Both the position numbers and the translations under genes were made by a program. Under the pieces are notes generated by a model, which saw only the letters and a list, made by a program, of their open reading frames with translations, searched no databases and was not told the DNA's origin. Positions 665 through 43,386 of a stretch of DNA of 64,000 nucleotides are shown one piece after another (position 1 is the stretch's first letter; each line of letters starts with the position of its first letter). The stretch is from Utricularia gibba (lineage: Eukaryota; Streptophyta; Magnoliopsida; Lamiales; Lentibulariaceae), in assembly GCA_002189035.1 (NCBI GenBank), contig NEEC01000008.1, forward strand, positions 806,001-870,000, written 5' to 3'.

Positions 665-1135
665 CTGACTGATGTCCCCAAACTTCAAAGAAGCCATATC
701 TCATTTAAAACCGCAATCTTTCTTCATCTTACCAAATAATGCAACGGCGTCAGTTGGTCTACCGGCCCGAACCAAGCGATCAACAAAAGCTTCAAAACAT
801 TTCACCCCAACTACCCCACGGCCATCAACTAGAACCTCATGGATAGCCTTAAAATCCTTCCTTCTCCCAAAATAACGTACCCAATAAGAGTAAACCTCAT
901 CCGTGGCTTCAAACCCCGGCCTTGATTTCGCCCATCGGGGGAAATCAACCGCCGCACGAAAAAATCGAGCGGAAAGTCTCCCGTTGCTTAAGAGACTCGA
1001 CTTCTCATTTTCTCATGTGACCATTAGTCCCACCTTGCTGCTGGCCACGCTGCACGTAAAGTTCGAGCGGTTCAACCATCTGGGAGCTGTGGAGATGCTG
1101 GGAAGGCATTGACGCAACAAAGAAATCAGGTGGGT
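665..1135 (-). pseudogene. Rearranged 5' fragment of a PPR gene (paralogue of the gene at 33.6-35.2 kb)
   Basis: On the plus strand this stretch closely follows 34,530-34,800, the antisense of the PPR gene. Shared landmarks include CTACCGGCCCGAACCAAGCG and the run around CCCCACGGCCATCAAC. From about 965 to 1055 the similarity switches strand: the segment reading GCGGAAAGTCTCCCGTTGCT matches the reverse complement of 34,826-34,912, so an internal block is inverted. After about 1056 the original orientation resumes and matches 35,136-35,200. Part of the PPR N-terminal coding sequence is missing. No continuous PPR frame survives, so this is a non-functional fragment. It lies just upstream of the GT61 gene, as the intact PPR lies just upstream of eL42. 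Confidence 0.85.
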
Positions 1136-1139
1136 TGCG

Positions 1140-1279
1140 CATTCTCAATGTTGGGTCCGGCCCATTATATCACTTTAGGCAATTAGGAGTTTCCTATATA
1201 AACCAGGCGGCTCATCCGAGTTAGAGTACCGAACCGGAATTGTGGTGGGATCGTTGCTCCTCCTATGCCTTCAGCCATG
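1140..1279 (+). promoter_or_regulatory. eL42-derived promoter and leader in front of the GT61 gene
   Basis: This region closely matches the promoter and leader of the eL42 gene (about 35,315-35,466). It keeps a site II-like CGGCCCATTATATCA motif, a TATA-like CTATATAAAC, the GGTACTGAACGGG-like leader (here GAGTACCGAACCGG) and the TGCCTTCAGCCATGG start-codon context. Site II elements (GGCCCA) are known to drive plant ribosomal protein genes. That this copy drives GT61 is inference from position and from the in-frame splice to the GT61 exon. Confidence 0.65.
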
Positions 1280-2851
1280 GTATTTATCCCTTGAATTTGT
1301 TTTGTTGATGATAGGCTTTTGCAGTTGTGGATAGATGCATGTTTGGGTTCTTGGTTGATTTTTTTTTATTGCTTGGTTATTGATTGTGAAAAAATATTTC
1401 TAGAGTCTAACATGATGTATATATATATGATTGTCCAGAAATCCAGAACGTGTCATCTAATGGAACTTAGATCATTACCAAGCCAACGAAGTCAATTCAG
1501 ATGGTTGTTGTCTATAGTATGCTGCATTCTACTATTCACTCTATCTAACATCTTCATTCAATATTTTGGTAAGTGATACATCACATGTTCTAAATTCTTC
1601 TCAAACTTGACAACATGCATGCTTATAGCTTCCTTTTCTACAGTGAATTTGGAGATATCAATGGTGCTGGATCTCAAACTGCTTAAATATTCCAAAGAAC
1701 TAGAGAAATGGGTAGATCAAATGCCAGAATCAATACATAATTTGACCAATTCCAGATCAGATGCATATCAACTTGATGGAGATATAAGAGTTGATGGGAA
1801 ATCTTCAACTATTCTCATAGCAAGTTCGCAAGATCATATTACCTCTTGGACTTTGAAGCCTTACACTAGAAAATTTGATCCTTATGTAATGAACTATGTC
1901 AAGATGTGGAAGATCAATGCTCAACCTGCTGCAAATCTCCCTTCGTGTGATCGAAAAATGACATCTCCAGCCGTACTATTCTCTGGAGGGGGATATACTG
2001 GAAACCAATTCCATGACTTTACTGATGTGCTTATTCCCCTCTACTTAACATCACGACACTTCAACATGACTGTCGTTTTTCTTTTGACAGATATGCGGTA
2101 CCCTTGGCTCAGAAAATATGTGGACATACTCCACAAGCTTTCCATGTATGAAATTATCAACATGGACAAGGAGAACCAAGTGATATGTTTTACAAAGATG
2201 ATTGTTGGCCTTAGAGCTCACAAAGAGTTTGGAATAGATGTTCTTCAATATCCTCACTACTCCATGATGGACTTTAGGGAGTTCCTCAGAAGCACCTACT
2301 TGCTACAGAGACGTCTGTTACCTAATGGTTCATGCTCAGCAAAGCCTCGGTTGCTCATCATTTCACGGAAGAGCAGCCGTCTCCTGAAGAACGAGGACAG
2401 AGTAGCAGATTTGGCACAGAATATCGGATTACATGTGACAACAACTGAGATAGATGACAAGAACATGACAACAGTTTCAAGATTTGTGAACTCATTTGAC
2501 ATTATCATGGGGGTTCATGGAGCTGGATTAGCCAACATGGTTTACCTACCGGACAATGCAGTTGTGATTGAAATAGTACCTTTTGGAGTGGACTCGTTGG
2601 CAAGACCTTATTTTAATATTCCTTCAAGAGAAATGAACCTGAGATATATTGAATACAAAGTAAGCTTGGAAGAGAGCTCTTTGCTAGGAAGGTATCCAGC
2701 AGACAGTGAAGTGTACCGACATCCAGGTGAAATCCAACGTAAAGGTTTTCTTGGGTTTAGGTCTATTTATCTGGATAATCAAGATGTAACCCTTGATTTG
2801 AATAGGTTTAGGAGGGTTCTTTTGAGAGCCCTGAGTTACATATGTGGCTAG
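1277..2851 (+). CDS. GT61-family glycosyltransferase (xylosyl/arabinosyltransferase-like)
   Basis: Type II Golgi enzyme of the GT61 family, whose plant members transfer xylose or arabinose in N-glycan or xylan synthesis; the acceptor cannot be told here. Main exon 1644-2851 carries VLFSGGGYTGNQFHDFTDVL, TPF/SRKSSR-like elements and the family hallmark GVHGAGLAN near residue 300. Upstream exon 1439-1568 encodes a membrane anchor (FRWLLSIVCCILLFTLSNIF); donor 1569, acceptor AG at 1642-1643. A start at 1460 (MELRS) is possible in this exon. Alternatively ATG 1277-1279, followed by GT at 1280 and acceptor AG at 1437-1438, joins in frame to give MKSRTCHLMELR and a protein of about 446 residues. 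I prefer the latter because the ATG-only exon and intron derive from the eL42 gene. The ORF has no internal stop. Confidence 0.82.
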
Positions 2852-24965: not shown

Positions 24966-26149
24966 TTATGCGTGATGTAATTATAATACATATGTCTGCA
25001 TCAATGTTAAAGTTTTAAAATATATAGATATTTTTATCTAGTGAATTGATATAAAAACAATGACATATCTGCATATTAGACTATAAAAAAATATAAAATA
25101 TATAATTATAAAAAATATAAAATTATCTCATGTGCATGAAAATATAAATACATGTGGAGTTGTCAAAATCCATGAGAATAAGGTATTAAGATATATTTGT
25201 AATTTTAATTTCTAAGATAGATGAGATTTTTAAAAAAAATTGTTAAATACATGAGATTTCATTTATATACTTAAAATTATGGAAAAATTAATATATTTAA
25301 TTATTATTTTTTAATAAATAAATAAAAATTTATCAACTATATATTATTTTCATAACGTTTTAAGATAATTGTATAAATATAATATATTTAAACTATTCAA
25401 TATATATCAAAAAATTATTTAATGCAAAATAAATTATCATTGCTATAATTTTTTTTAAATAGCTATATAAAAACGATATATTTAATTTATTTAATATAAA
25501 ACTAATCAAGCTATACATATATTTAAAAAGATTACATAAAAACCATCAATTTAAATTTAAAATAATTATAAAAATAATGTATTCATTTTACATGATTTGT
25601 AATCTTATTGCATTTATTTCAAAAAAGTTAATTTTATCATGTATTTTAAATCTCCAATAATTTCGTAATTTTAATTATTTATTTTATACAATTAAATCAC
25701 AAATTATATTGATTTTCATTATGATTTATCTGAAATTAAAAATAATTAATTTTCATTCATTTCGTAATGTGATATGCAATTTTATAGAATACTTATCATG
25801 ACAAACATAACATTCAATATTTAAGTAATTCTATCAAACAAATAAGTCAAATATCATATAACTCAAATGATAATTATTGAAATTAATGTATCAAATGGAA
25901 AAAAAAATGATTTACTGTTTGACTTAGATTTTTTGTATTTTGTTGTTGATATTGATGGTGAGTTATATGAGTTTAACAGTGATATTGATGTACAATGTCA
26001 TGTAATAAGGGTGTGTTTGGTTAGAGATATTGTTAGGTATGGGGTTTGATGATTATTAGTTATTTGAGAGTAATTGGTATGGAATGAAATATGATAATGA
26101 TATATTTACTAATGCATGCCTATATTAATTTGTGGTGTAGATGAGGATT

Positions 26150-26700
26150 ATGGAAAAAGAGTTTGGGTTGAGGAAGAAAAAAACGCCTTGATCCTTGCTT
26201 TTAAATAGAGAATTGCAGATAAGTGGAAGTACGATAATTCATTTAAAGCTGAATATATTAATGTATTAGATGATATCTTGAAGAAAATGTTACCATGAGC
26301 TAACATTAAGGGTAACCCCCATATTTCTTCTAAGTATAAGGTTTGGAAAATAAACTTTGGAAAGATACATGACTTTGTTTCAAGATCTGGAAATAGTCTT
26401 GATTTAATCACACATAAGATTGATGCAACTAAGGAGCATTGAGATGAGTTGTTAAAGGTACAATTTAATTGATTTTCGATTTAACATTATGTATATTAAC
26501 TCATACAATTTTATTGTTTTTTTTTTCTTTTGTATAGCATGATAGGAAGACCTATATTGCTTTGAAAGATAAAGTTTTTCTTTACTATAACGATTAGCTT
26601 GAGATCTTCGTTAAAGATCATGCAAATGGAAATGGTACAATAGGAGCAACTGATGAAGGATTAGAGGATATTGCTGCCTCTTCGTATAAGATCAAAATGT
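26150..26700 (+). pseudogene. Myb/SANT-like ORF1 remnant in the Harbinger element
   Basis: Plus-strand pieces read ADKWKYDNSFKAEYINVLDD, then NIKGNPHISSKYKVWKINFG and, after a gap, LEIFVKDHANGNGT. This matches the Myb/SANT-like protein order (W-K-x-D-N-x-F-K, H-I-x-S-K, and an F-x-K-D-x-A-x-G end). Several stop codons interrupt it. Confidence 0.65.
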
Positions 26701-26756
26701 GTGTTTAATTTCCTATAAGTTGCTATTTGACACCATTGGCTGTAGAATACTTGCAA

Positions 26757-28075
26757 CTAAGCATTCAACCATTCTTCATACATTGCAACAGTAAGATTAT
26801 CACATAAAGCATTCCGAGCAGGGGTAGATTCAACCGTATCAATGTAATCTTGACCTTCTTCATTCACCTCTTGATAATCTTCCGGGACTTCGGCTTCTAT
26901 TGGATCGTGCTCCATTTCTCGACATATGAAATTATGGAGTAAGGCACATGCAATGATCACTCTCGTTTGCGTCTAGATAGCATAGAAGGATGGACTCCGT
27001 AGAATACCCCATCGCTTTTTCATTATTCCCCATACTCTCTCAATTACGTTTCTTGTCTTCTCATGTCGCATATTGTAATAGTCATTTTCATTTTATGATA
27101 CTTTCGTTCCAGACCCCCATTCCTTTAGATGGTAGTGACACCACAATACGGGGTTAGAAACCCCTCACAATTGGTATATCCACAATCACCTAAATAGTAA
27201 TAACCTACAAAAATAATCAACTTAGATAGTCATTCAAATTATCACATTTTTTCAAAAATTGCAACTTGTTTTATGTAAAATGACTGATGTTCATCATATA
27301 ATCTGAAATTTAATCAAGTTAACAAAAAAAAGAATAACTTGATCACATAAACATTCATAACTTAATAGAAAAACAAAGACAATCAACAAGTAAATAGAAT
27401 CTATAAGGTCAAATACACTATTCATGAAAAGCTACAACATAAAAAATGATACATACTCAAAATACTCATAAAAATAATCACATTACTTGTGCGAACATGA
27501 AAATCTGGATTCTAAGTAAGTGCATGACGTAGAACACGTCTATCCGCAACCAAACCTTCCTAACCGACAAGTATATATATAAAGTTCATTTTCTCGTTGC
27601 AAACCCCTAGAACATTGGTTAATATTCCACCTTTATAACTTCTATAAAGCTTCTTTTCAGACTCTTTAACCATAACATCTACAAACGTTCCATCTAAAGC
27701 CCCCCAAACAATTTTAAAATATTTGAAAGGAATTTCACCAATTATGGGTTCTGGTTTAACTAACAAAATATCATGTAATTTCAAAATACACTGAAGTACG
27801 GAGTTAACATATTTGCTAATGGTCTCAATAGACCTTTTAAAATCAAACTTAAGAACTCTCATTTTTTTGTGATGATTTAGGAAACCAAGGAAAATGGCTA
27901 CTTTTTCAGACACTGTAATATATTTCAATGATTTCAATCCACCACAAAGAGATAATAAAACACATAGATGCTTGAAAATATCTTCACTAATCCTAAGATT
28001 TTCAAGAGAAGCACCTCGACAATCACTAAATAAGTCTCTTAAATATGCAAATTGTCTAGGAATTCTTTCTTTCAT
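26757..28075 (-). pseudogene. PIF/Harbinger DDE transposase remnant
   Basis: The N-terminal part (28,075-27,560) is a long open frame with NLRISEDIFKHLCVLLSLCG, VSEKVAIFLGFLNHHKK, VWGALDGTFVDV (first catalytic Asp region) and GILTNVLGVCNEKMNFIYIL. The C-terminal part (26,960-26,757) has MIIACALLHNFICREM. The region between is shifted and broken, with ERVWG-like text near 27,030. It is less decayed than the copy at 11.7-13 kb. Confidence 0.75.
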
Positions 28076-29205
28076 AGAGTAGGTGATACAAGTTCTAGAA
28101 TTTTAACGCAGCTTCCTAACCCAAAACCAGAAAAATGCATACTCCATTTGTAACAAATTATTTGAATGAAACTTCAACATGAGCATTAAATTCAGTGAAA
28201 ACATTTGGATTCATGGATAGTATAATTAATCAAACCCTACGACAAAAAAAGACTTCCAATTATTGAATTTAGGCACTAACTTGAAAACATGAAAACAATA
28301 TCGATTTAACATATGCTAATTTCATTGAACATAGAATTCTAACATAAAAAATTGTGCGAATCCAGGGATATTGGGCTAATTTAACCAAATTTAAAAAAAA
28401 TAAACAACAAACCTGAGAGGAAATAAGGTAGAAAGATCGCACGCAACTTTTCCCCAAAAACCCAGCAAGAATCGATGCTTCAATTGGCCAACTTGGAAAT
28501 CTAGGTTTTTTTGGGATGCTTCAATTGGCCAACGAGAATCGATCCTTCAAGTATGAGAAGAAGGTATGCTTTATTTCAGTTTTTTTAATTAAATAGAAAT
28601 TATAAAAATAAGGGTAAAATTGTAAATACAATATAAGGTATTAGAAAGTTCAAAGTTTCAAGACTCCACATCCAAATCCTATACCTAAGAGATATTAAAG
28701 TATTTTTTAAAAAAACCTATGGAATAAGCATAATTGATACCAAACACAGGATTTGCAATCCAATACTTTCAAAATAACCCCAATACCCCATGCCAAACAC
28801 ACTCTAATAGGAATCATGATGCCATGTGCATATTGGTTCTTATGAAAGGATGAATGTTTATAAGAATGATTGGAAGACGAACTTTGAATTGAGATTGAAA
28901 GAATGTCGTCTCGTCTATCATCCTTGGAAGTGTCTATGGATTTTTGTTTTTATCGTGATCTGTGTTTACTAATTTATTGGTTTGATAATTAATAGAACAA
29001 CTATATCTAACGGTGCTATCACAACCTAATTTTTTTCTTTTTTCGCATATGAAATCTAAAATACAAGTGTTGTGGAAATCTAAAATGATGTATTATCTTA
29101 ATCACACTCATCGTGTAAAGGGTTAACAACTCTTGCAAAATTGTTAACCAAATACATAGTGCTATAATAAATTCTTGTCCTATGCAATGAACGCAGAATT
29201 AGTGA

Positions 29206-29880
29206 TAAGCCAGTAAATTATACCAACAGATGATTCTGAGTTGCTATTTATATTTGTAGAGAAAAACTTGTATCATCGCTAAGTAGAGGATTAAGAAACC
29301 TTACCAAATAGCATATCAGTACAAGAAGCCGCAATACAGTGGTTACGCCTACAAAAATATGAACTTAATCATCATCAAATTATCACAAACAGAAAGTAGA
29401 AAATGGAGAAGTAGGAAAGATTGATGCTGGAGGTTTGATGAAACTTATGATGCCATCCTATTAATAGGTGGGCTTTTTGTACTCAATTTTGGACCCGATC
29501 CATGATATCATTTTGGGCTACTGGGGTTTACTATATATTGGACGAGAATTGTGGTGGGATCAGTTCTCCTCTAGTGCTTTCAACCATGATATATGCCCAT
29601 TTACTCTATTTTCGTTAATGATATGTTTTTGGAGTTGTGGGTAAATTTATATTTGGGTTTCAAATTAATTTTGTTTATTGCTTGATTATCGATTTCAAAA
29701 AAATATTCCTAAAATCCACTATGATGCATAGATATATAATTGTCTAGAAATAAAAAATATATCATGAAATGAGACTTGTATCACCATCAAACCAACAAAA
29801 GCAATTCAAATGGGTGTTGTCTATAGTTGTTGTATTCTACTATTTACCTTATCTAATATTTTCATAAAAACTATCATTTT
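29206..29880. pseudogene. Chimera of PPR, GDPD, eL42 promoter and GT61 exon fragments
   Basis: 29,222-29,290 follows 34,992-35,060 (PPR antisense; shared ACCAACAGA and TATTTGTAGAGAAAA versus TATTCGTAGAGAAAA). 29,311-29,395 follows 38,285-38,370 (GDPD exon 2 and intron 1: GCATATC, ACAAGAAGC, AATATGAAC). 29,410-29,700 follows the eL42 promoter, start region and intron 1, and 29,700-29,875 follows GT61 exon 1 (TGTCTATAGT, ATTCTACTATT). The site II core GGCCCAT has become GATCCAT, the splice donor after ATG has become AT, and the GT61 part opens with AAA TAA. It cannot encode any of the parent proteins. Confidence 0.75.
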
Positions 29881-32024
29881 TTATGAATTGAATTACGTAA
29901 TATATGATTCAAGCCTTATAAAAATAATAAAATTGAAATATACTACGATGTATGCTAAATTGATTTAATAGATGGTAAATGTATTAGAATTAAATTTAAA
30001 TCAATTTGAATTTAATTTGATCGTTAAATACTATGATTCTAATATCGGATGTGTCAATTACATTGATAAATAAGAAGATTTAAAGTGTCTACTCTATCTA
30101 TATATTCACTTTAAAAAACAAAATAGGCTAAAAAAAGTTACTCTAAAAAATATTATAATAGTTTTGTTTTTATATGTTAAATAATAATATAGATGCAATC
30201 TATTAAAATAAAAAACATAGAAGTGCATGGTTCGTGCTCATAAATTAGAATTTAAAACTTTGGGAATCACCGATTAAAAAACTATCCAAATTCCTTGAAA
30301 AACTTAAATCTAATAATCTTGGTACTATTATAGAATAAGAGTACAATAAAAATGCATGTGAACGAAATTTGTTCAATTATGTCTTATAGATAATTTGAGT
30401 TCATCATTAAAGTTTTTCAATATTATCATTGAGTTCTCTGTATTGGTGGCGCTCATTTATACAATAGTTATACTTACAAATTGCTAATATATGTGAGTGT
30501 TGATGAAAGTAAGTATATTTTCTCAATCGGATATGCCTTTGTCTATGGAGAATCATAAGAATATTAGAAATTCTTCTTGCGACAAGTTGACCAACATGTT
30601 GTCTATGGAAGAAATGGTGTTTGTAAGATACTTGATCATGGCCCGGATTTGATTGTTGTATATGAAAGATATGAACGGTTCAGCTATACTTATGAAATAC
30701 ATTATTGGTGCAATTTGTATGTTTGAAAGAATTGTATGTTATTTATTAATAAAAAGTTGAAAGAAGTTGGGTATTCGATCAAAAGGGCATTATATGCAAT
30801 AAATGAAAACAATTTCAATGCAAATATGGTATAAATACTAAAAAAGATTTTATTGATACACGTGATTACTTATTGAAAATTCTAAAATAAAAATTGATAT
30901 TATTTTACAATATAAGACAAATGCATTAAATCTAACGAATTTATCATATTTAATTAAATTATCACATTTTTTATTTGAAACATACACTTAATCATGATAA
31001 CAAATCAGATCAAATTTATTAACAATGTTTTAAGAGTAGCTCAATGTAATTTTCAATTGCACTTGCAAAGATAACTTGCTAATTAATTTATCTTCAATTG
31101 AATATTTTATTTGACGTATTCCATGATACTTTAAAGTAACATTTGAAAAAGCATGTTAGTACTTTAAATGATATAGGATGGCAACATACAAATGATATAC
31201 AAATAAAATATTTTTGAATGATAAGGTTTATGAAAAGTATAAACAAGTATCGAAATTTATACCAAAACTTATATGCACAAAATACGACTCAACAAATCAA
31301 ACTTATACATTGTAACTTCGAATACAATATTTAATAAACATAAAAACGGTTGAAGTCAAAAATAGAAAATGTAAATGCGGGGTTTGATAGATTGATAGAT
31401 ATCCATGTGTTCATGCTCAAATGATAAGTGATTTAAATATCACACTAATTTAATAATATTGTTCAATTTTTTATCTAAAATAAATAATTTGAAGATTTGT
31501 CATCAATTTCATGTGAATCCATTATATACAATGAGTGTTTATTATAACATTATATATTTGATCGAAATACATCTATTAGAATGAAAAAAAAGATGGCATT
31601 CTTCCAATCTCAATTCAAACTTAATCTTCCAACTATTTTTATGGATACTCATCCTTCACGAGAGTCAATATGTCTTGGATATTATGACTTCTGCTTTTCA
31701 ATGATATTCTATATCAATATTGCGATCAAATCCACCTAACTTACCAACAACATTAGCAATAAAAATATAAAAAATTTAAGTCAATGTGTAAATCATTTTT
31801 TTCATTTGATCCATTAATTTTGGCAATTGTCATTTGAGTTATATGATATTTAGCTTATTTGTTTAATAAAATTACTTAAATTGAGTTAATTTTATATTTT
31901 ATAATTATATATCTATATTTTTTCATTCAAATATATAGACGTCATTATTTTTGTATTAATTCATGAGATAAAAATATCTATATATTTTGAAACTTTCACA
32001 TTGATATAGATATATACATCACAA
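29880..32024 (+). pseudogene. MULE copy, plus orientation, decayed
   Basis: From 29,880 the sequence parallels 39,790 onward (AATAATAAAATTGAAATA, then the N-terminal coding part). Near 30,440-30,560 it carries the MULE core equivalent to 41,110-41,230 (CTCTGTATTGGTGGCGCTCA versus CTCTGTATTGATGGCACTCA). Near 31,390-31,700 it carries the SWIM-like and C-terminal parts. Many stops and indels are present, and part of the MuDR-domain region is missing. Confidence 0.7.
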
Positions 32025-33614: not shown

Positions 33615-35238
33615 TTAAGCACGGCGCATCGTGCGTTTTGGTTTCTTGACATAGCTTAGCCTGATTTTCTTGAGGCGTCTTCTCTTCCTGGCCATCTTCT
33701 CGGGGAGCGTTTCCCTTTTGCTTTCCCTCTTCGCGCCTGCTGCAGCTTTCTTTTGACAAACTTGGGATCCACCCTGTATTCCTTTGGCTCCACAGGTATT
33801 CCATTGCTCTCAGCTTCCTTGTAGAGTGCATTGGCCTTGTCAAAACGCCCATGAGCGCATAGTTTTGCCATCAACAGGTCATATGTTTTGATGCCAGGTT
33901 GACAACCATCCCTTTTCATCATTTCAAAAACTCTCAAAGCATGGTAGAATCTTTCGATTCCGCACAAAGCACGGATGAATTCGTAGTAAACCTTCTTATC
34001 TAGAGCATCTCCATAACCAGCGGATTTCATCTTATCGATCATCTCATCTCCTTCCCCCACACGGGCTGCCTGATACAAACTCTTGGTAAGGACGATAAAG
34101 GTAGTTTCATTGGGTGGCAGCTCCACTCCCCCATCCTGGAAAACAGTTTCACTGCATCCTCCGTTTTCCTAATCTTGCATAAGTTGGTAATCAGTATGTT
34201 AAATGTGTCCACGTTGCGGGGAACACCCTTTCTTTCCATCTCAATCAACAGATTCTGCGTCTCAGATTCAAGCCGGAAGGGATCCTTCTGCCTGCAAAGC
34301 CTACAAACACAGTCTAGAAGACAATTGTATGCAAATGTACTTATCTCGAAGCCTCCTCTGGACATCTCATTCATCAATCTTCTTGCCTCTTCTAATTTTC
34401 CATCTACACACCACCCACTGATCAAGGCATCACAAATGTAGTCATCAGGAAAGAACTCATTAGCCAAACTCTTGACCATCTTTTCAGCATAGCTGGCGTA
34501 CCCTCGCTCGCAGAGACTGGAAACAACAAACTTCAAAGAACTCATATCTCTTTTAAAACCATAATCTTTCTTCATCTTACCAAATAATGCAACGGTATCA
34601 CTTGGTCTACCGGCCCGAACCAAGCGATCAACAAAAGCTTCAAAACATTTCACCCCAACTACCCCACGGCCATCAACCAGAGCCTCATGGATAGCCTTAA
34701 AATCCTTCCTTCTCCCAAAATAATGTACCCAATAAGAGTAAACCTCATCCGTGGCTTCAAACCCCGGCCTTGATTTCGCCCATTGGAGGAAATCAAGCGC
34801 CGCACGACCCGCATCAGGCGAAATGTTGAGCGTGGCAAGCAGCAAGGTGGGATTAATGGTCACATGAGAAAATGAGAAGTCGAGACTTTTAAGCAACGGG
34901 AGACTTTCCGCTTCCGGCGATTGCAAGAGCTCATTAGAGAGAAGTTTCGCCGAGGCATCTTCATCTTCTCCAACTTCCTTTTGTTTCTCACCAACAGAGG
35001 ATCCCGAGGCGACATCTATATTCGTAGAGAAAAGCCTTGCGCTCGCGGAGAAGAGCTGAAATTGAGGAACAGAGAAGGGATTCTCATACACTGTACATCG
35101 ATAAGGCTCCCGCCCCAGAACAGGATACGGATGCGTAAAAATCAAGCGGTTCAACGATCTTGGAGCTCTGGAGATGCTGCGAAGGCATTGACGCAAGTTT
35201 GGCGCCAAGGAAGAAATCAAGGGCTTGCGCATTTTCAC
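33615..35238 (-). CDS. Pentatricopeptide repeat protein, mitochondrial, with two apparent frameshifts
   Basis: P-class PPR protein, probably organellar, binding RNA. Single-exon gene starting at 35,238 (MKMRKPLISS) with an arginine-rich N-terminus suggestive of mitochondrial targeting. PPR motifs run from about residue 180 (VKCFEAFVDRLVRAGRPSDT, YICDALISGWCVDGKLEEAR, VDTFNILITNLCKIRKTEDA). Near 34,112-34,114 the frame shifts by one base in a C run and resumes as NETTFIVLTKSLYQAARVGE. Near 33,716-33,719 it shifts again in an A run and resumes as ETLPEKMARKRRRLKKIRLS, a basic tail ending RTMRRA at 33,615. Both breaks are cured by adding one base to a homopolymer, so sequencing error is likely; a recent pseudogene is the alternative. 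Fragments of it occur at 0.7-1.1 and 29.2 kb. Confidence 0.8.
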
Positions 35239-35463
35239 AGAAAAGAGGAACTGGAGTGAAGCAGGAAGCAGTTCTGGAGGTGCGACGAAAACCTATGACG
35301 GCGTCGTATTAGTGGGTGGGCTTTTGGGATTCAGTGTTTGGGCTCGGCCCATTATATCATTTTAGGCCGTTAGAGGTTTAGTATATAAATGTTAGGGCTC
35401 CTCCAAATTAGGGTACTGAACGGGGAATCGTAATCGATTGCTGCTCCTTCGGTGCCTTCAGCC
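35239..35463. promoter_or_regulatory. Bidirectional promoter region between PPR and eL42
   Basis: Only 225 bases separate the two start codons. It holds TGGGCTTTTGGG and TCGGCCCATTATATC (site II-like GGCCCA and its reverse), a TATA-like TATATAAATG near 35,381, and TTAGGGCTCC and TTAGGGTAC (telo-box-like). These are known motifs of plant ribosomal protein promoters. The region was copied to 1,140 and to 29,410. Confidence 0.6.
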
Positions 35464-36445
<982 letters not shown>

Positions 36446-36600: not shown

Positions 36601-38403
36601 CTAATGCTCCTTTAATTTTGAAATCATATAAAAGATCTTGTACAAGAGCTCATCAGTGCCCTCTGCATTTGATGGGAAAGGATTAGTCCAGTCCTGATAC
36701 CGGTGTAGACTGCCAGTGAAGTCTGTGAATAGCCCATCAACACCCATCTTGTGGATCCAGTAATCATATTCAAGGTATGGATCTTGGCTGAAATTGAAAT
36801 GTAAAAATTGGTTCTCATTCCTGTAGGTGTATGGATGCACCTGCATCAAGATGAATGGTAGTTAGTACATGAGGTATTCGAGAAACCATGTTTTTGAGTA
36901 GAACCTCTCTCTGTACCTGGAGATTACGAGCGTGTGCCCTGGATATGAGATCTGTTGGCGCTTCTAAATAGTTGTTTACCGGAGGATCGAGTGTGTCCTT
37001 CCATGGACCAATTCCGACAACATAATTCTTGATGTAGTCGAGATACTTATTCGAAGTGATCTCGTAGAATGTCTGGCCATGGATGCAGTGTAGCACAGTT
37101 AGGGTAATTTAAGATGAGTTTCATGATGTATATGCCCAGGGTTGAGAGGGTGACCTGATTTGTGTCCTGAGTGGGAATGTCAACATCATCGATGAGAAAA
37201 ATCTTGGGCAGATCAGTGAGGGAGGCAGCGTAGATGAGAGAAGTGGGGGCAAAAGATTGAATGAAACAGGGCTGCTTAAGCCATGACTCTGTCAAATAAT
37301 CCCCTTTGTATCCATACTTCACAAGAGTCTTCACGAACACATCCTCCACCCGCTGACCTGCAGGCCATTTTACCTGTTGGTACAATGCAATGGTGATACA
37401 CAATTTTCATTTCTTTTTTGTACTTGTGACCCCGAAGGCAGTCTCATGGAAATAACACTCACATGCTGGTTGATGAACACTGGATTCTTGATCTCTGGAT
37501 AGATGCCCACAACTCGAGAAGCATTGAGAGCAATCTCAATGAACTCTTCAAAGGTGATGATGTGATACCTTCCTGCAGACAGGCTCAGTACATGTAACTT
37601 CGTGCAATGTAACCTTTTGCATTTCATAAACTGGAGGATGCTTGCTGCATACCGTTGTACTGCTGATCACGAAAAGAATACCTCTGGTTCAGCCTCAGTG
37701 TTTTCAGTTCTTCCAGTGTGAAGTCAACTGTACATGGATACATGTTTAAGGCGATGAGGGTCTGAACAAGAATGCATCAGAAGCAAGAGGGCTACCGGTG
37801 AAGAAGCCAGTAACATTCTGTCCCTGCACTACGTAGGTTCTATTCCTGCCAGCAAACTCCTTGTGACTAGCAATGTTCGTCACAGCATCAAGAGTGAGAT
37901 CATGGAAGCATATCAGAAAACCGTCTTTTGATGCTATAATGTCCGTCTCTATGAAATCAGCACCTTCCTTAATAGCTCTCTGCAATTCTACCAAGCCATA
38001 TGTCAAAGAAAAATCTCGCACACCGTGAGCAGAGGATTCTGGAAACTCAAATCAATTCCGTTTCAACAAATCGCATCAACCAAAGCGTGAAATCAGCGGC
38101 GCAAAATCATGGAGTCAGTACGGATTCATATAACCCTACCTTGTAAGCTGGTCCAGATTCTTCTGGAAGCTCCCCATTGGCGCCACGATGAGCGATGTTG
38201 TAGGCGCGAAAGGTCTGAAGTTGTGTCTTCTGGAGATTCTGATTACCATCGCTAGGCAGAGGACTAAAAACCCTCGCCGCGGAGCATATCGGCACAAGAA
38301 GCAGCAATAGGAGGAGTACGCCTATAGAAATATGAACCCGATCATCATCGAATCATCGCAACAGTCGACAAGCCAATTCACCGCGCTCACCATTTGAAGC
38401 CAT
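36601..38403 (-). CDS. GDPD: Glycerophosphodiester phosphodiesterase, secreted or vacuolar type
   Basis: Hydrolyses glycerophosphodiesters to glycerol-3-phosphate and an alcohol; plant members act in phosphate recycling. Eight exons in phase: 38,403-38,391, 38,321-38,140, 37,979-37,796, 37,727-37,653, 37,572-37,463, 37,373-37,155, 37,072-36,917 and 36,840-36,601, about 392 residues. The N-terminus MASNGVLLLLLLL with VPICSAA is a signal peptide. Catalytic text includes AHRGANGELPEE (His-Arg), EGADFIETDI (Glu, Asp) and FHDLTLD (second His). Later blocks are YHIITFEEFIEIALNASRVV, GIYPEIKNP and GVDGLFTDF near the end. No defect was seen. The 13-base first exon is inferred from phase and could be wrong. 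Its 5' part was copied into the 29.3-kb chimera. Confidence 0.9.
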
Positions 38404-39234: not shown

Positions 39235-39274
39235 CTAAACACGGCATTTACTTAATCCCAGCTCCGTCGCTATG

Positions 39275-42200: not shown

Positions 42201-43273
42201 ACATTTATGCTGGAGTTGTTAACACTTTACGTGATGAGCATAATTGGGGTGACGCACCATTCCAGGTTTTCATGGATCCTTTGCGAAAAAGGAAGAAATC
42301 AGGCCATGACAATACTAATAGACATAGGGGTCCCGTTGATTACCAACAGAGTGGTAAACATGGATCACGACGCAAATAGAAATCAAAGGACACTTCCCAG
42401 GATGATAGACGAGACAACATTCTCCCAACTTCAATGCAAACTTCATCTTCATATCATTCTTATAGACATTCATCATTTCATGAGAGTCACTATACACTAG
42501 GTATCATGACTCCTATTATTGCACGACATTCTACATCAATATCGTGATCAAAGCCATCTGACTTGCCAACAACGTCAACAACTCAATCCAAAAAGTCAAA
42601 GTCAAAGAGTAAACCGTTTTTTTTCTTTTGATTTGTTAATTTCAGTATTTTCATTTGAATTATGTAATATCTTACTCCTTTGTTTGGTGAGATTGGTTAA
42701 ATATTGAATTTTTTATTTTTTATTATAAATAATATGTAATATCATATGTCATGGTATAAAATAAATGAAAATTAATTATGTATAATTTTATATAATTCAT
42801 AATCTAAATCAATATGATTTTTGAACAAAATCAATGAAATAAATGAAAAAATTATCAAAAATGAAAAACACAAATGATAAAATTAACTTTTTGAAACAAA
42901 TGTAATAAGATTACAAATCATAAAAAACAAATAAATAATTTTTTACATTTATTTAAATTTAAACAAATGATTTATATATAAAACTTGATTATTTTTTTAT
43001 TTTCTAAATTAAATATATGATTTATATAATTATTTATAAAAAAACTTATAGTAATATTAATTCATTTATATTAAATAGCATACATTATTTTGAAATATTA
43101 TGAAAATAATATATAATCATTTATTTAATAATTTTTAACAATAATTAGTTACATTGTTTTTATAAAGTTTTTAAACTCATTTATTTTGTAAATCAAAACT
43201 CAATCATCATCTATTTTAGAAACCATTTTTAAACATCATCTATTTTGACAAACAAAAACTGAAAGTACATCTA
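39275..43273 (+). mobile_element. MULE (Mutator-like element) with visible ends
   Basis: The left end starts TAGATGTACTTAACTATTTT and includes GGTTTCTAAAATAAATGAG. The right end, reverse complemented, starts TAGATGTACTTTCAG and includes GGTTTCTAAAATAGATGATG. These are long, diverged terminal inverted repeats built on a repeated AAATAGATGA motif. The element is about 4 kb and contains a broken MuDR-type transposase gene. It is the fullest of the three related copies here. Confidence 0.7.
39848..42380 (+). pseudogene. MuDR-type transposase, frameshifted
   Basis: Pieces lie in order but in changing frames. The N-terminal domain is 39,866-40,100. An acidic linker follows (for example NSNEDSTYIPNEEEDEL near 40,280). 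The MuDR domain with EEGMHFKDKQELIDAMTLYH near 40,500 and CSFYLWVGFQKQTGTWKISK near 40,660 comes next. The transposase core is PILCIDGTHFYSSYNYKLLV near 41,100, PIAYAFVYGESEEDWEFF near 41,200 and MISDRGSGLIAA near 41,300. A weak SWIM-like zinc finger (KCEYGIWY, YLCVHA) lies near 42,010, and a C-terminal basic tail with RKRKKSGHD near 42,290. First catalytic Asp (IDGTH) is seen. Stops make it non-functional. Confidence 0.75.
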
Positions 43274-43386
43274 AACACGGCATTTACTTAATCCCTCCCT
43301 CTTTCATAGCTACATATCTTTACGGCTAAGGAATGGGAAATCTTTCTCCTGTTCCCGCGCCCCATATCTTTACGGCTAAGGAATGG
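43271..43386. repeat. Direct repeats flanking the right end of the MULE
   Basis: A 25-base string starting CTAAACACGGCATTTAC occurs at 43,271-43,295 and also at 39,235-39,259, just outside the left end of the MULE. In addition, a 24-base string starting CATATCTTTACGGC occurs at 43,313-43,336 and 43,363-43,386. The first pair is too long to be an ordinary MULE target-site duplication. Confidence 0.75.

Follow-up and report, generated by a model that had tools for sequence, protein, structure and literature searches.

The promoter, start codon and intron start of the ribosomal protein gene eL42 are duplicated at the front of a GT61 gene of Utricularia gibba

Partial duplication is a known way for chimeric genes to come by the promoter and 5' exon of another gene. 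At the locus described here, a DNA-level duplication likewise supplied a promoter and first exon to a GT61 glycosyltransferase gene and left the donor, the ribosomal protein gene eL42, intact; unlike in such chimeras, eL42 gives a start codon and no further protein, and only the control and the first few residues of the recipient would change. Across eukaryotes, and above all in ribosomal protein genes, introns that sit immediately behind the start codon are over-represented; as a possible reason it was proposed that they may allow 5' UTRs to join in exon shuffling, with genes exchanging regulatory information (Nielsen and Wernersson 2006, PMC1626468). As far as consulted, that article presents statistics and a conjecture without a dated transfer, whereas the GT61 case comes with a source, a junction and a relative date. 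The likeness is twofold: in both genomic copies the ribosomal protein gene eL42 has an intron immediately behind its ATG, and its promoter, 5' UTR, ATG and donor side moved together to an unrelated gene. The locus differs in that splicing of the recipient is predicted and a new upstream ATG has arisen, and as a single case it fits the 5'-module proposal of 2006 as set out there. A literature search, from whose reach most subscription journals were excluded, found no described transfer of a start-codon module.

Three further bodies of work bear on the locus. A telo-box adjoining a site II element is associated with coordinated expression of ribosomal protein genes in land plants (PMC3212954), first introns often increase the level and breadth of expression (PMC6374622), and Mutator-like elements have been described that pick up pieces of genes and join them together (PMC8277862).

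The window, by which we mean the whole analysed stretch of 64,000 nucleotides (C414:806001-870000), was searched together with the assembly it belongs to (100.09 Mb in 516 contigs). Local alignment within the window matched positions 1,145-1,411 at the GT61 5' end to 35,331-35,597 at eL42 with 75.5% identity over 267 bp (E = 6e-49), with a score of 133 against a maximum of 28 among 500 dinucleotide-preserving shuffles. Across the assembly, and at this similarity, the stretch 1,100-1,600 had no match other than itself, the eL42 locus and one further place, at 29.5-29.9 kb. It is near certain that the GT61 5' end arose by copying. The initial annotation had matched 1,140-1,420 to the eL42 promoter, ATG exon and intron start; that match holds, but the extent was drawn too small, with pieces of a PPR gene lying at 679-1,147. 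It had also named only the GT61 and eL42 copies and overlooked the third, at 29,222-29,865. The copied pieces and their source are as follows.

679-959, plus strand: fragment of the PPR gene, 95% identical to its source at 34,527-34,807, with an in-frame stop
968-1,051, minus strand: second PPR fragment, inverted, 95% identical to its source at 34,829-34,912
1,055-1,147, plus strand: duplicate of the PPR 5' end, 78% identical to its source at 35,134-35,237
1,145-1,411, plus strand: the block from eL42 (35,331-35,597), comprising promoter, 5' UTR, ATG exon and the initial 132 nt of intron 1
35,237-35,599, plus strand: the source, with the head-to-head eL42/PPR promoter, the eL42 5' UTR, exon 1 (35,464-35,466) and the start of intron 1
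35,916-36,445, plus strand: eL42 exons 2 to 4

Intron 1 of eL42 has 449 nt (35,467-35,915), with a counterpart at GT61 for the first 132 nt only, and the 27 nt before the GT61 acceptor are not alike to it (score 7). The predicted intron 1 of GT61 is therefore a hybrid, and the view that the first intron of eL42 had been copied stands for its first 132 nt but fails for the 3' 27 nt and the acceptor at GT61. On the other side of the block, the PPR gene lies head-to-head with eL42, and the pieces at 679-1,147 derive from it; since they stand left of the GT61 promoter copy, the source was the shared PPR/eL42 promoter with both its flanks.

The PPR pieces differ in age from the promoter copy. The 281-bp piece shows 14 differences from the PPR gene of the window, of which 5 are private to that gene and 7 to the fragment, the latter confined to codon positions 1 and 2 and including one that creates a stop. 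Because such changes go with an identity of 95%, against 75% for the promoter copy, the fragment is younger or was later converted, and dating the event by it was rejected. The 95% pieces thus appear to be younger than the 75-78% pieces, or to have been converted later; either a later gene conversion or another round of copying, primed by the older homology, would account for them. As a separate observation, the window's PPR gene has a frame of 417 aa that reads from 35,292, stops early and resumes in another frame (33,656-34,168), with the break at 34,039-34,168, and the PPR homeolog on C3 has a single open frame; the break is either a base error of the assembly or the onset of gene decay.

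Direction and relative date follow from a second eL42 gene at C3:2,413,572-2,414,041, which carries site II boxes, a TATA box and GCCATGGTATGA, the same ATG-only exon. Read from the sequence, eL42 has a phase 0 intron directly after the ATG on both C414 and C3, and because promoter layout and ATG-only exon are shared, they are native to eL42. Over 256 shared columns the distance is 0.27 between GT61 and the C414 eL42, 0.39 between the C414 and C3 eL42 genes and 0.40 between GT61 and the C3 eL42, an order kept in 99.96% of 5,000 column bootstraps. As less separates the GT61 copy from the C414 eL42 than separates the C414 eL42 from that of C3, the copying to GT61 followed the split between C414 and C3. 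The similar distances to C3 suggest no great difference in rate between the GT61 copy and the C414 eL42. A four-sequence promoter tree, with one internal branch at 65-70% support, was set aside. The reverse course, with GT61 as the original owner of the block and eL42 as its recipient, has next to no chance of being right: similarity alone is symmetric, and nothing was found that favours this direction, whereas the C3 eL42 has the same promoter layout and ATG exon (128 of the 256 columns are common to the three copies) and part of the block is 5' coding sequence of PPR, a component of the PPR/eL42 pair. On C3, eL42 and PPR stand about 4 kb apart, with another gene between them (C3:2,414,424-2,418,377), so that the head-to-head promoter has been split there, with each half keeping its own part.

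The third copy lies within a transposable element of the same window.

24,985-32,015, plus strand: Mutator-like element region with the third copy, resembling an element at about 39.27-43.27 kb
29,222-29,865, plus strand: third, decayed copy, carried as transposon cargo and made of a PPR piece, a GDPD piece, the eL42 promoter to intron 1 and a piece of GT61 exon 2

The pieces of this cargo follow each other in the order PPR (34,990-35,055), GDPD gene (38,244-38,361), eL42 (35,237-35,599) and GT61 exon 2 (to 1,557), and its alignment with the GT61 locus is unbroken across the join of eL42 intron and GT61 exon. This indicates that the join is old and argues against a misassembly. An artefact of the assembly joining two loci, for which nothing but the unusual structure speaks, can practically be discounted, as the copies are 25% different, with numerous indels, and the junction recurs in a decayed copy that is independent. 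Together with the C3 homeolog and the copying after the split, the junction in the transposon copy strongly supports what had been proposed for GT61, namely that it acquired the promoter, the start codon and the 5' part of intron 1 of eL42. In the third copy the donor is lost (ATGAT), a stop has been gained just past the acceptor, and 22 of the 34 private changes are G to A or C to T, which would reflect the usual decay of methylated transposon DNA.

The flanks of the third copy match the element at 39.3-43.3 kb, which bears the MULE transposase domain PF10551. The element flank is repeated on C2 and C402, and the cargo matched, in the same search, only the GT61 locus besides itself. GTGATGTA and a long inverted repeat are common to the two ends of the element, where no clear target-site duplication could be made out. 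The copy at 29.2 kb thus consists of captured gene fragments inside a Mutator-like element, one of the marks of a Pack-MULE, and resembles described Pack-MULE captures (PMC8277862) in combining several nearby gene pieces and in being single in the assembly. It differs from them in that the cargo copies an already fused gene start and no target-site duplication was found, and the intact GT61 copy lies outside any element as far as seen. Two other observations concern the surroundings of these elements. A separate transposon-like insertion at 26,008-28,805, with an ORF on the minus strand (27,560-28,102) without Pfam match, breaks the left arm of the Mutator-like element, whose matches break off and resume, left and right of the insertion, at element coordinates that adjoin. 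The Mutator-like element region at about 39.27-43.27 kb is flanked by a direct repeat, some 25 bp long (CTAAACACGGCATTTACTTAATCCC; 39,236-39,262 and 43,268-43,295), which is much longer than the usual 9-bp target-site duplication.

The capture of gene pieces raises the alternative that the chimera was first built in the Mutator-like element, from GDPD, PPR, eL42 and GT61 pieces, and was then passed to the GT61 gene by recombination. The element at 29.2-29.9 kb does have the same junction and other gene pieces from within 30 kb, and gene-piece capture and fusion are known for such elements (PMC8277862). However, 35,134-35,237 lies directly upstream of the GT61 promoter copy, where the element has the GDPD piece instead; because the element lacks this segment, the GT61 5' sequence derives directly from the eL42 locus, and it is more probable that what the element copied was the fused gene. 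Conversely, 35,237-35,330 is present in the element copy and absent at GT61. With these complementary retained parts, GT61 does not derive from the element copy and lost about 93 bp later. We therefore hold an origin within the element to be improbable; most likely, the fused gene start existed before the element copied it.

The features of the GT61 gene itself, as far as they bear on whether the copied block is used, are the following.

1,159-1,164, plus strand: GGCCCA, the sole site II element kept at GT61
1,195-1,201, plus strand: TATATAA box kept from eL42
1,265-1,267, plus strand: new in-frame upstream ATG in weak context (GTG in eL42 and in the 29-kb copy)
1,277-1,279, plus strand: eL42-derived start codon, putative exon 1, followed by the donor GTATTT
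1,280-1,438, plus strand: putative hybrid intron 1, with the 5' 132 nt derived from eL42 and the 3' 27 nt and acceptor AG not
1,439-1,568, plus strand: GT61 exon 2, membrane anchor, with an alternative start ATG at 1,460
1,644-2,851, plus strand: GT61 exon 3, catalytic part, Pfam PF04577

The splice coordinates of the initial annotation (ATG at 1,277-1,279, GT at 1,280, AG at 1,437-1,438, and the product MKSRTCHLMELR) are exact, and its claim of signals for in-frame splicing to the anchor exon is borne out by the fit of the sequence, with the 1,279/1,439 model giving an uninterrupted frame of 446 codons to 2,851. The acceptor is a CAG ending at 1,438, and the stretch around ATG and donor is the best-conserved 20-bp window (18 of 20 identical). 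The product scores 47.3 bits for PF04577, against a cutoff of 27, has POMGNT2 and EOGT as its best solved relatives, and shows an N-terminal hydrophobic stretch, WLLSIVCCILLFTLSNIFIQYF, which was judged by eye to be a membrane anchor. The GT61 frame is intact, whereas its C3 relative is frameshifted, and differences fall on codon positions 1, 2 and 3 in the numbers 17, 23 and 35. The description of an exon consisting of the ATG only is right for eL42, in both the C414 and the C3 copy, but GT61 may differ: a G-to-A change creates the in-frame ATG at 1,265, which, if used, is predicted to yield the N-terminus MPSAMKSR and may give exon 1 a coding part of five codons. The native 5' end of GT61 was found neither in the paralogues, whose identity is only about 35% and whose matches begin at residue 78, nor in the truncated C3 relic.

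The promoter copy has fared less well than the start codon and donor. The source promoter of eL42 combines three site II boxes with a TATA box and with two short cores of the telo-box (TTAGGG), and thereby resembles described ribosomal protein promoters of plants (PMC3212954). The GT61 copy, diverged by 25-28%, has lost two of the three site II hexamers and both short telo-boxes, and is unlike those promoters in keeping one site II element and the TATA box only; the combination of multiple site II elements with a telo-box that marks the ribosomal protein type is absent from it, and the eL42 genes have more of both elements. The earlier statement that a site II element and a TATA-like motif are kept is thus correct for GGCCCA at 1,159 and TATATA at 1,195, but leaves out the losses. 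Only 24 of 143 promoter hexamers are kept at GT61 and the boxes survive about as often as random hexamers, so that the retained boxes by themselves are no proof of selection. That GT61 took over a housekeeping promoter is right as to its origin from eL42; the broad, housekeeping-like expression expected from it is weakened, since most boxes have eroded to background and the core alone (TATA box, one site II element, ATG and donor) is intact. It should be noted that part of the eL42 first intron came along in the copy.

Alternatively, the eL42-derived block may be a passive duplicate left at a rearrangement breakpoint, its promoter and ATG unused, with GT61 transcription starting at a native or new site near 1,417-1,459 and translation at the ATG at 1,460. 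A TATATATAT stretch at 1,417-1,427, upstream of this in-frame ATG, would permit a start without the borrowed module, regulatory hexamers are kept no more than background, and the block lies at an inversion breakpoint amid debris such as the broken and partly inverted PPR fragment. On the other hand, ATG, donor and acceptor are intact and in frame at GT61, with the window of ATG and donor conserved best, and the transposon copy, by contrast, lost its donor and gained a stop after the acceptor. We consider a passive duplicate unlikely, though far from implausible.

The breakpoint emerges from comparison with C3, where 2,398-2,431 kb form the homeolog of the window. Relative to C3, one orientation is shared by PPR, eL42 and the genes up to 59 kb, and the part from GT61 to 24.6 kb has the opposite one; the inversion concerns window 1,300-33,600 against C3:2,418-2,431 kb, with breakpoints at the chimeric GT61 5' end and in the transposon-rich 24.6-33.6 kb. 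On C3, GT61 is a relic, covering about codons 331-421 in a first search and showing nine gaps and frameshifts in a wider alignment. A GAUT-like gene lies between PPR and this relic (C3:2,421,192-2,422,634), and no homeolog of it on C414 was found in this assembly; a search for homeologs of the genes beside the second inversion breakpoint likewise found none. Inversion through staggered breaks and recombination between inverted repeats were rejected, as both would leave inverted copies; with the copies at 1.1, 29.4 and 35.3 kb all in direct orientation, the simplest inversion models are ruled out. It is plausible that the promoter was copied during repair of the rearrangement.

Taken as a whole, the GT61 5' end is a DNA-level duplicate of the head-to-head PPR/eL42 promoter, in which at least 35,134-35,597 was copied beside GT61 after the homeologous C414 and C3 segments had separated. 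This stretch brought along the PPR 5' end, the shared promoter and the eL42 5' UTR, ATG exon and intron 1 start, with the join falling within intron 1, immediately upstream of an AG usable as an acceptor. Because the eL42 intron comes directly after the ATG, the copied block is a self-contained unit of promoter, 5' UTR, start codon and donor, one that could be attached to any phase 0 exon behind a downstream acceptor. Transcription of GT61 would most likely begin from the retained TATA box, and splicing of 1,279 to 1,439 would yield a type II membrane-anchored GT61 protein with a few extra N-terminal residues. We put the probability of this reading, a duplicate copied after the split that now starts GT61 transcription and the spliced product, at roughly two in three. 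Functional use of the borrowed start by GT61, considered separately, seems reasonably probable. We are more tentative about the wider claim, and lean slightly against it, that the start codon and intron unit of eL42 is a transferable regulatory module which drives GT61 today, making the locus a dated natural case of 5'-module shuffling.

The GT61 locus is a concrete case that can be tested: one genome offers the donor and the recipient, the junction, a relative date for the transfer and an independently preserved fossil of that junction. It also suggests a genome-wide search for similar transfers. If transcripts confirm the model, the locus would show that the expression of a gene could be changed almost without a change in its protein, via a unit of promoter and ATG joined through an intron.
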